Source of the DNA: Bacteroidales bacterium
GTDB lineage: Bacteria > Bacteroidota > Bacteroidia > Bacteroidales > F082
Direction of reading: 5' to 3'
DNA length: 64,000 bases
NCBI GenBank assembly: GCA_028277395.1
Contig: JANQGJ010000054.1
Coordinates: 1 to 64,000, forward strand
The first letter of the stretch is position 1. Each line of letters starts with the position of its first letter. Positions 59,482 to 64,000 of the stretch are shown here, in pieces. Below the pieces are notes generated by a model. The model was not told where the DNA came from and ran no database searches. It saw nothing but the letters and a program-made list of their open reading frames with translations. A program made the position numbers and the translations under genes.

Positions 59482-59554
59482 GGACTCGTAGCATAACGGA
59501 TAGTGCACCTGACTACGGATCAGGAGGTTGCAGGTTCGAATCCTGCCGGGTTCA
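59482..59554 (+). tRNA. tRNA-Arg(ACG)
   Basis: A 73-base cloverleaf: acceptor GGACTCG with CGGGTTC (two G-U pairs), D arm, anticodon stem CCTGA/TCAGG with loop CTACGGA and anticodon ACG, T arm GCAGG-TTCGAAT-CCTGC, discriminator A. CCA is not encoded. It reads CGN arginine codons after A-to-I editing. Everything to its right up to the window end looks accessory. Confidence 0.96.
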
Positions 59555-59565
59555 CTTCAAAATCA

Positions 59566-62112: not shown

Positions 62113-62184
62113 CTATAACACACAATATAAAACAGTTGGGGGGTCAGTGATTTGCGAGAATTTTATTCTTGCGCCAACTTTTTT
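62113..62184 (+). repeat. attC-like site 2 (left arm complete, right end eroded)
   Basis: CTATAAC (62113-62119) would be the outer box. AAAACAGTTGG (62129-62139) pairs with CCAACTTTTTT (62174-62184), 10 of 11 bases, and an inner hairpin GCGAGAA/TTCTTGC (62154-62160 with 62166-62172) fills the loop. No matching outer GTT box is seen to the right. GTATGTAC (62102-62109) just outside is the exact inverse of GTACATAC (61067-61074) at the other end of this segment. Confidence 0.5.
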
Positions 62185-62374
62185 CTCGATTGATACAAAC
62201 GCGCTCCGAAAACCCAGCAGAAAAAATTTCGTGAAAATTGGCTTGACTTTTTTCGTTCAGTCTTTACAATTTTGATGTGCCATAAGGTCGCTGAAAGTTC
62301 TTCTCAAAAATTAACACAAAATTGGATTATACTACCTATAGACTTGAAAAACAGGTGTCGAATGGGTGAAAATT

Positions 62375-62421
62375 GGCTCATAACCCGAAGGTCGGGGGTT
62401 CGAATCCCCCCTCCGCAACCA
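62375..62421 (+). pseudogene. 3' half of an initiator tRNA (fMet-type) with encoded CCA
   Basis: The sequence runs from GGCTCATAA (anticodon CAT at 62379-62381) through the CCCGA 3' half-stem, variable AGGTC, a perfect T arm GGGGG-TTCGAAT-CCCCC, the acceptor strand CTCCGCA, discriminator A and CCA. The three C's after the loop and the A at position 72 are marks of bacterial initiator tRNA. No D arm or 5' acceptor strand exists upstream, and the 5' half of the anticodon stem is only partly present, so it is a fragment. It begins where tyrosine integrases often cross over. Confidence 0.75.
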
Positions 62422-62477
62422 CTAAGCCAGTCATAAAGCAAGAATCCTTGAACAAAAAATGTGTTAATTGGTAGTCC

Positions 62478-62508
62478 AGCGACCCTATGGCAAAGCCCTA
62501 AGGTCGCT
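62478..62508 (+). repeat. hairpin just upstream of the recombinase gene
   Basis: AGCGACC (62478-62484) pairs with GGTCGCT (62502-62508), with an inner GGC/GCC stem and AAA loop. It ends 4 bases before the ATG. TAAGGTCGCT of its right arm (62499-62508) recurs exactly at 62283-62292. Confidence 0.6.
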
Positions 62509-62512
62509 CGCC

Positions 62513-63406
62513 ATGTCTCAACTTCAAAAACTTCATCACCGCTTTTGCCAACATTCATTAGTATTTAAAGGGAATAGTCCACGAACAATTGACTGGTTTA
62601 AATACGATTTCCGTTGGTTTCTCGAATTCGCAAAAATTAAACGATTAGAACAACTTACAAAACAGAATATCCAAGACTGGATTTTGAATGGAAAACTAGA
62701 AAAAGAATGGTCAGCAAAAACTATTCGATTGCGTTTACAATCAATGAGTTTGTTTCTTGACTGGTGTGTACAGGAAAACTATATCAAAGAAAATCCATGT
62801 TCAAAAATACCCAAGCCAAGATTGCCAAAAAGTATCCCAAAACATCTATCGGCAGACCAAGCGCAATTATTGCTTGACTGGGTGAGCAATTATTCTTTCA
62901 ATTACAAATTTGAGAAAAGTAGGGCGCAGGCAATCATTGCAACTTTTATTTACACTGGGATTCGTAAAGCAGAACTTATGAGCCTAAAAGTGAACGATGT
63001 TGACTTTGAAAGCAAGTCCCTCATTGTAAGACAAGGAAAATGTAGTAAAGACAGAATAATTCCAATGCACGAAAGTTTGATTGAGTCTTTGCAACGATAT
63101 TTAAAAGATCGCGCGAGGTTAGGAAAATGTTGTCCGTATTTCTTCACTGCTATGCGACAAGATTCAAAGATGGGAGACTCCGTTATAAAACGACTTGTGG
63201 AGAAAATTAGAAAGAAAAGCGGAATTCAGTTTTATCCTCATTTATTACGTCACACGTTTGCAACATTGATGTTGGAAGGTGGGTGTAATCTGTTTGCGCT
63301 TTCACAAATGATGGGGCATTCTGATATTAAGACGACAACCATTTATTTGTCTGCAACAAAATCTCACCTTCAAGAACAAATTACGAAGCACCCTCTCCAG
63401 TTCTAA
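62513..63406 (+). CDS. tyrosine recombinase (XerC/D-like)
   Basis: A 297-residue site-specific recombinase. The N-terminal SAM-like domain (about 1-95, TIDWFKYDFRWFLEFAKIKRLEQLT) precedes the catalytic domain, which keeps R151 (TGIRKAEL), K176 (RQGKCSKD), H243 and R246 (PHLLRHTF), H269 (MMGHSD) and Y278 (TTIYLS). It has no additional IntI patch between the Lys and the HxxR, so it is not a classical integron integrase. The ATG at 62513 is chosen over an in-frame upstream start because the hairpin lies before it. Its 3' end overlaps by 4 bases that of a homologous recombinase on the other strand. Confidence 0.9.
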   Translation: MSQLQKLHHRFCQHSLVFKGNSPRTIDWFKYDFRWFLEFAKIKRLEQLTKQNIQDWILNGKLEKEWSAKTIRLRLQSMSLFLDWCVQENYIKENPCSKIPKPRLPKSIPKHLSADQAQLLLDWVSNYSFNYKFEKSRAQAIIATFIYTGIRKAELMSLKVNDVDFESKSLIVRQGKCSKDRIIPMHESLIESLQRYLKDRARLGKCCPYFFTAMRQDSKMGDSVIKRLVEKIRKKSGIQFYPHLLRHTFATLMLEGGCNLFALSQMMGHSDIKTTTIYLSATKSHLQEQITKHPLQF

Positions 63407-64000
63407 ATCAATTGAAGTTCATTAAAACTCTTTTTTATGCTTTCGTTGGAAACAGAAAGATATATTTGAGTGGTACTAATGCAACTATGTCCCATGATTT
63501 CCTTTAACTTGTAGAGATTCAAATCTGCGTTCACAGAAAGTCGTGCGAATGTATGTCGAAGCATATGGGGTGTTATTTTAATACCAGAAGCAAGAGAGAT
63601 TTTTTTAAAGATATTATACAGGTTTTTTTCTGTTAGTCGTTTTTCCGAACGAACACTCGTAAAAAACCACTGTCCAATATTTCCATTTTTTTGTTTTTCT
63701 TTCATATAGCCTCGAAGTACAACAGATAATCTGGGATGAATCGGGACAAGACGATCCTTTTTTCCTTTTCCTTGCCGAATGATTATTTGTTCACTTTCTA
63801 AGTTTACATCATTTGTTTTGAGGTTAAGCAATTCACGAAGCCTCAAACCTGAAAAGATGAACATTGTTAAGATTGCTTCGTTTCTTATTTTTTCGATTTT
63901 ATAATGCCAAGGATACCAAGCTGTGTGATAGAGAATCTTCATAGTTTCCTCCTTTGTGATACATCGGGGGAGGCGTTTTGGGATTTTGGGTTTTTCAATA
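63403..64000 (-). CDS. tyrosine recombinase, partial at right edge
   Basis: The frame is open from the window edge (64000) to a TAG at 63403. The first visible residues (KPKIPKRLPRCITKEE) match the linker before the catalytic domain in the neighbouring recombinase, so the ATG at 63942 is internal and the true start lies outside. Catalytic residues seen are Arg in SGLRLREL, Lys in RQGKGKKDR, His and Arg in PHMLRHTF, His in IMGHSC and Tyr in QIYLSV. It is a homologue of, not a copy of, the 62513-63406 protein. The two are arranged tail to tail. Confidence 0.88.
   Translation of the reverse strand, partial: IEKPKIPKRLPRCITKEETMKILYHTAWYPWHYKIEKIRNEAILTMFIFSGLRLRELLNLKTNDVNLESEQIIIRQGKGKKDRLVPIHPRLSVVLRGYMKEKQKNGNIGQWFFTSVRSEKRLTEKNLYNIFKKISLASGIKITPHMLRHTFARLSVNADLNLYKLKEIMGHSCISTTQIYLSVSNESIKKSFNELQLI

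Follow-up and report, generated by a model that had tools for sequence, protein, structure and literature searches.

The DNA analysed here, a stretch of 64,000 nt that we call the window, closes on two convergent recombinase genes, the first of which is preceded by a piece of initiator tRNA. The features that concern us are, in order of position:

59482–59555, forward strand: tRNA-Arg(ACG), the regenerated attL of the enclosing island
62117–62213, forward strand: hairpin repeat, 79% similar to a repeat of the Persicobacter plasmid pPP2
62243–62270, forward strand: TTGACT-16-TACAAT, by consensus match only a sigma-70-like promoter, lying upstream of the tRNA half
62279–62292, forward strand: left copy (13/14) of the palindrome arm, GCCATAAGGTCGCT, some 83 nt left of the tRNA half
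62375–62421, forward strand: foreign initiator tRNA, 3′ part only, spanning anticodon loop to encoded CCA
62478–62508, no strand: 31-bp near-palindrome AGCGACCCTATGGC-AAA-GCCCTAAGGTCGCT, just before the int1 ATG
62513–63406, forward strand: int1, a simple tyrosine recombinase of 297 aa, with core-binding and catalytic domains and the catalytic motifs
63403–64000, reverse strand: int2, a second simple tyrosine recombinase, extending past the window to contig position 64290

The tract at 62375–62421 reads GGCTCATAACCCGAAGGTCGGGGGTTCGAATCCCCCCTCCGCAACCA and is present as a single copy in the 4.86-Mb draft genome (whole-genome search). It comprises a CAU loop, a 5-bp T-stem (GGGGG/CCCCC), the sequence CTCCGCA and an encoded CCA, and 32 of its nucleotides recur unchanged in the complete tRNA-fMet of a viral contig. 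Its resemblance to a tRNA is beyond chance; the strict T-arm motif has five occurrences in 330 kb of comparable sequence, a background of about 0.006 per 400 nt. An earlier note on this DNA had recognized in these 47 bases the 3′ half of an initiator tRNA with its CCA. This holds, with one correction in detail: along its 5′ strand the anticodon stem matches only in part (ATTGG vs UCGGG), so that true tRNA identity begins at GGCTCAT. That stem, broken in the window, is fully intact in a counterpart from another genome, G021, described below. Neither ARAGORN nor Rfam at curated thresholds calls the tract, because it is only half a tRNA; the G021 counterpart scores 28.9 bits against the Rfam tRNA cut-off of 29. 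Assignment to tmRNA or to another Rfam family was discarded, the T-arm alone matching, far under the family cut-offs. Two further statements of the note proved correct: both complete tRNAs of the window lack an encoded CCA, and a recombinase gene lies just downstream, its ATG (62513) 91 nt past the CCA of the tract.

That gene, int1, has its first in-frame start upstream of the ATG, a TTG at 62468. It is convergent with int2, and the two proteins, 36% identical to each other, are each about 296 aa long and consist of core-binding and catalytic domains only, with the R-K-HxxR-H-Y motifs of simple (Xer-like) tyrosine recombinases. They fall under every curated cut-off for XerC, XerD and integron integrases, with 188 and 178 bits against the NCBIfam cut-offs of 335 and 330 for chromosomal XerC and XerD. 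An integron was likewise rejected, int1 reaching 107 bits against the NCBIfam integron-integrase cut-off of 265. Simple recombinases are known from mobile elements, for example the Int of phage Brujita or XerT (PMC8138268). The present pair is like them in having core-binding and catalytic domains and no arm-binding domain, and unlike them in being a convergent pair accompanied by a tRNA half. In the viral contigs, phages and plasmids searched, no relative of int1 exceeded about 31% over most of the protein.

The pair and its tRNA half lie within a larger element. A 47-bp perfect repeat of the 3′ half of tRNA-Arg occurs at 59510–59556 and again at contig position 94186–94232 (attR; G000:C101), so that the tract has one copy 2.8 kb on its left and the other 31.8 kb on its right, and TTTGCAC...TTTGCAC repeats are found near both ends. 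Beside attR is int3 (92814–94082; 422 aa), which has an arm-binding domain, while a T4SS coupling protein and a MobA/VirD2-like relaxase are encoded between the repeats. With its att repeats, integrase, relaxase and coupling protein the region is, to judge by these features, an ICE/IME-like island of about 34.7 kb inserted in tRNA-Arg, with a crossover near the anticodon loop. The earlier note had placed an integration scar at the tract itself. The real scar of the region is the duplicated tRNA-Arg 3′ half (59510–59556 and 94186–94232), and the tract is nested 2.8 kb inside the island. The island, which extends beyond the window, also carries a RadC-like gene and a TIR-domain gene (CAP12/Pycsar-type). 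At a contig end elsewhere in the genome (G000:C54:306-416), an elongator tRNA-Met is followed by sequence that resembles the tRNA-Arg attL region at 78%, perhaps marking another island of the same integrase type.

A sister of the int1/int2 module is found in Bacteroidetes bacterium GWF2_41_31 (G021), which belongs to a different genus and is the sole genome among 149 relatives to possess int1 at 77–78%. There, too, the same tRNA-fMet half precedes int1, and int2 is convergent. The blastn match between the two modules begins exactly at 62375 and spans int1 into int2, at 73% identity overall; the 91-nt spacer between the half and int1 is clearly similar in both, and the left flank is not. Within the half, the two differences in 47 positions together change one T-stem pair from G-C to A-U, which could reflect two different donor tRNAs. 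The G021 island sits in tRNA-Lys, as indicated by a 46-bp repeat (contig positions 185288–185333 and 232191–232236, plus or minus one base); its int3 adjoins attR, and the fMet half with int1 and int2 is near the tRNA-Lys end of the island. Identities between the two islands amount to 77% for int1 and 70% for int2, against 54% for int3, 62% for the RadC-like gene and 24–49% for transfer-type genes. As int1 and int2 are more alike than the rest, it seems that the module passes from island to island independently. A tRNA part running from the anticodon arm to the 3′ end is thus found beside a tyrosine recombinase gene and conserved with it in independent elements, as would be expected of a tRNA-derived attP. 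In this genome no tRNA 5′ half is joined to the tract, and none lies beside the G021 half, where an intact one upstream would, according to the earlier note, have spoken against an attachment site.

Where does the half come from? The host's own tRNA-fMet, on contig C41, is 78% identical to the tract and has no CCA. Because it differs in this way, the tract is, by comparison of the two, foreign to the host; the earlier surmise of an origin elsewhere is borne out, and the identity to the genome's complete tRNA-fMet for which it had asked is missing. Foreign, yet not exotic: complete tRNA-fMet genes nearly matching both halves (40/43, with a degenerate pattern) are present in two other sampled Bacteroidota; these genes, at most three bases off, have ordinary chromosomal genes as neighbours, and one encodes its CCA. 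A scar left by duplication of the host gene was rejected on the sequence and copy number of the tract. That it should be the displaced 3′ half of a tRNA-fMet of the host or of a former host, left by an element which the downstream recombinase integrated, is very unlikely. Its extent from anticodon loop to CCA, its position and the adjacent recombinase are typical of such halves, tyrosine recombinases commonly crossing over at the anticodon arm. However, the tract is not identical to the 3′ half of the host tRNA; the host genome yielded no second copy, no partner site with an intact tRNA-fMet and no displaced fMet half; the same half occurs in G021, whose own tRNA-fMet differs from it equally; and the enclosing island is integrated in tRNA-Arg. 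Intact tRNA and displaced half with an integrase between them, an arrangement absent for fMet, are displayed instead by tRNA-Arg with int3. Both G000 (the host) and G021 are draft assemblies, and the host genome is about 95% complete, so that a second, unassembled tRNA-fMet is just possible. Tandem accretion is a further conceivable origin of the tract.

More distant relatives of int1 (41–46%) occur in Niastella populi (two copies), a Myxococcales MAG, G177 (a complete genome of the same class) and G837. Upstream of members of this family we read, by eye from the anticodon loops, the 3′ part of a tRNA-Gly(GCC) at L049, the 3′ part of a tRNA-Ile(GAT) at L058, at L047 (Niastella populi) a whole additional tRNA-Thr(GGU) that a group-I-like insert divides, and the 5′ part of a tRNA-Lys(UUU), with its anticodon arm, at L154. 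Counting the six loci with readable upstream sequence, a T-arm-bearing 3′ part lies within about 200 nt of the gene in five (fMet, fMet, Gly, Ile, Thr) and the tRNA-Lys 5′ part precedes the gene in the sixth, which brings tRNA sequence to six of six. No T-arm lies in the 600 nt upstream of any of 38 distant recombinases (about 25–32% identity), and with the low background of about 0.006 per 400 nt the association of the family with tRNA pieces is not accidental. The pieces differ from the resident tRNAs where compared, and their form varies, L047 with its intron-bearing tRNA-Thr and L154 with its 5′ part being the extremes. At L047:3697-3951 the tRNA-Thr(GGU) is interrupted in the anticodon loop by the insert of about 190 nt, some 35 nt before the int1-family gene; the insert folds with group-I-like helices and is not called by Rfam. 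A group I intron in the leader of the window was considered and dropped, there being no Rfam match.

This regularity weighs on two further explanations. It is extremely unlikely that the tract is a fortuitous relic of some tRNA gene, from a phage or a bacterium, unlinked to the recombinases; tRNA genes are common cargo and the viral contig with a complete tRNA-fMet shares 32 identical nucleotides with it, but tRNA sequence at six of six family loci, with a T-arm in five, against 0/38 at distant recombinases is hardly what such a relic would leave. Quite improbable, too, is a conserved RNA element, in which the half, placed in the int1 mRNA leader, would act as a processing signal (T-arm and CCA) or as an attenuator together with the palindrome. 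The paired T-stem change between the window and G021 would suit it, as would leader RNAs that fold better than their shuffles (z −3.7 and −4.4) and a left arm copy able to pair with the 5′ arm of the palindrome (15/16) in a manner mutually exclusive with the hairpin. Against this, tRNA identities vary across the family and both halves are represented, which a DNA target fits better, the anticodon stem of the window is broken, and the z-scores do not single out the tRNA half.

The sequence around the half helps to delimit the module. In G021 the palindrome differs, and its left arm copy differs along with it; left copies matching the best arm as well as those observed were reached in 0/2000 shuffles for both the window and G021, one of the two G021 arm comparisons being reached once in 2000. 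The TTGACT box of the promoter is also present in the left flank of G021. Further to the left, the similarity of the hairpin repeat to that of pPP2 stops at about 62213, the window copy being truncated, and this point probably marks where the inserted region begins on the left; a search of the remaining contig revealed no right-hand remainder of the repeat. A 13-bp direct repeat, GTGAAAATTGGCT, occupies 62231–62243 and 62366–62378, its second copy entering the tRNA anticodon loop. Flanking repeats resembling the AAGGTCG of the tRNA were tried as copies of it and set aside as suggestive only (p about 0.004–0.6 by shuffles, in the window and G021).

Several of these facts would suit a junction scar, left when int1 mediated an insertion at a non-tRNA or secondary site, with the tRNA half and the int genes forming the right side of the element and everything left of 62375 being target DNA. 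The window and G021 become similar precisely at the anticodon arm, the left flanks are otherwise unrelated, the hairpin repeat is cut off at about 62213 and the 13-bp sequence is repeated at 62231 and 62366. We nevertheless consider such a scar rather unlikely, for each left flank holds a copy of the palindrome arm of its own module, at a similar distance, and both contain a TTGACT box, unexpected of arbitrary target DNA. The arm copy argues for counting some of the left flank as module sequence, as in an unsplit attP; the shared left motif being hard to explain otherwise, we give an unsplit site more weight than an old junction.

Foreign, conserved together with int1/int2 and nested in a tRNA-Arg island, the tract is thus probably all of an attachment site, or else the core and right half of one, belonging to an int1/int2 module specific for the initiator-tRNA gene of other Bacteroidota lineages. 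This module would be carried as cargo near the left end of the ICE/IME-like island that int3 inserted in tRNA-Arg. The mechanism that we propose follows what is established for integrases that target tRNA genes. attP and a tRNA-fMet gene would be brought together by int1/int2 at the core in the anticodon loop, CTCATAA, and the element-borne 3′ half, CCA included, would complete the tRNA of the recipient, so that insertion into an essential tRNA gene would be tolerated. With no tRNA 5′ half attached to it, the tract looks like an unsplit or orphaned attP, which would give the island a second possible integration specificity. Of the attachment-site remnant proposed earlier there survives the tie to the adjacent tyrosine recombinase and the start at the anticodon arm, and not the duplicate of a host tRNA. 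That int1/int2 act on the tract, that they target tRNA-fMet and that the site remains active today we infer by analogy; no locus was found with int1/int2 in an intact tRNA-fMet gene and the displaced half at the far end, hence the inferred target. It also counts against the preferred reading that int1/int2 have no arm-binding domain, the arm repeats at 62279 and 62478–62508 having no assured role, that the abrupt start of similarity at 62375 would suit an old recombination junction as well, that the T-stem difference may stem from separate donor tRNAs and that the tRNA piece varies in form across the family.

Islander maps genomic islands that use tRNA genes as attachment sites of tyrosine integrases (PMC4383910). 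As outlined there, such sites resemble ours in that a tRNA 3′ part from the anticodon arm lies beside a recombinase gene and could in principle regenerate its target; unlike the sites of that outline, the half in the window is foreign, unjoined to a 5′ half and inside the island of another integrase in another tRNA. Phages with tRNA-dependent lysogeny make good the disruption of an essential gene with a whole tRNA of their own (PMC10865867). Integrase, tRNA target and element-borne tRNA are linked there, because the target tRNA is essential, and a like link appears here, with the difference that the int1 family carries a tRNA part only, L047 excepted. The tripartite ICE3, an ICE with several recombinases (PMC5882170), likewise unites at least two systems of site-specific recombination in a single ICE; unlike ICE3 as summarized in that source, the island described here shows no sign of an ICE split into parts, nor of coordinated recombination.

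An orphan tRNA half does not necessarily witness a past insertion in a local tRNA; it may be the portable docking site of a nested recombinase module. As a tentative extension, which we regard as possible rather than probable, some Bacteroidota ICEs may own a second and independent integration system, using tRNA-Arg or tRNA-Lys via int3 and tRNA-fMet via int1/int2 depending on the host. Its attP would be an essential initiator-tRNA half from another lineage, served by a pair of simple recombinases. If active, it would provide one ICE with two host-dependent tRNA targets and would help to explain how an island crosses between lineages with differing tRNA genes, for example in CCA encoding.

Finally, on plasmid pPP2 (L036:4001-4119) hairpins of about 100 nt separate a long run of single hypothetical genes, all on the same strand, a series resembling a cassette array.
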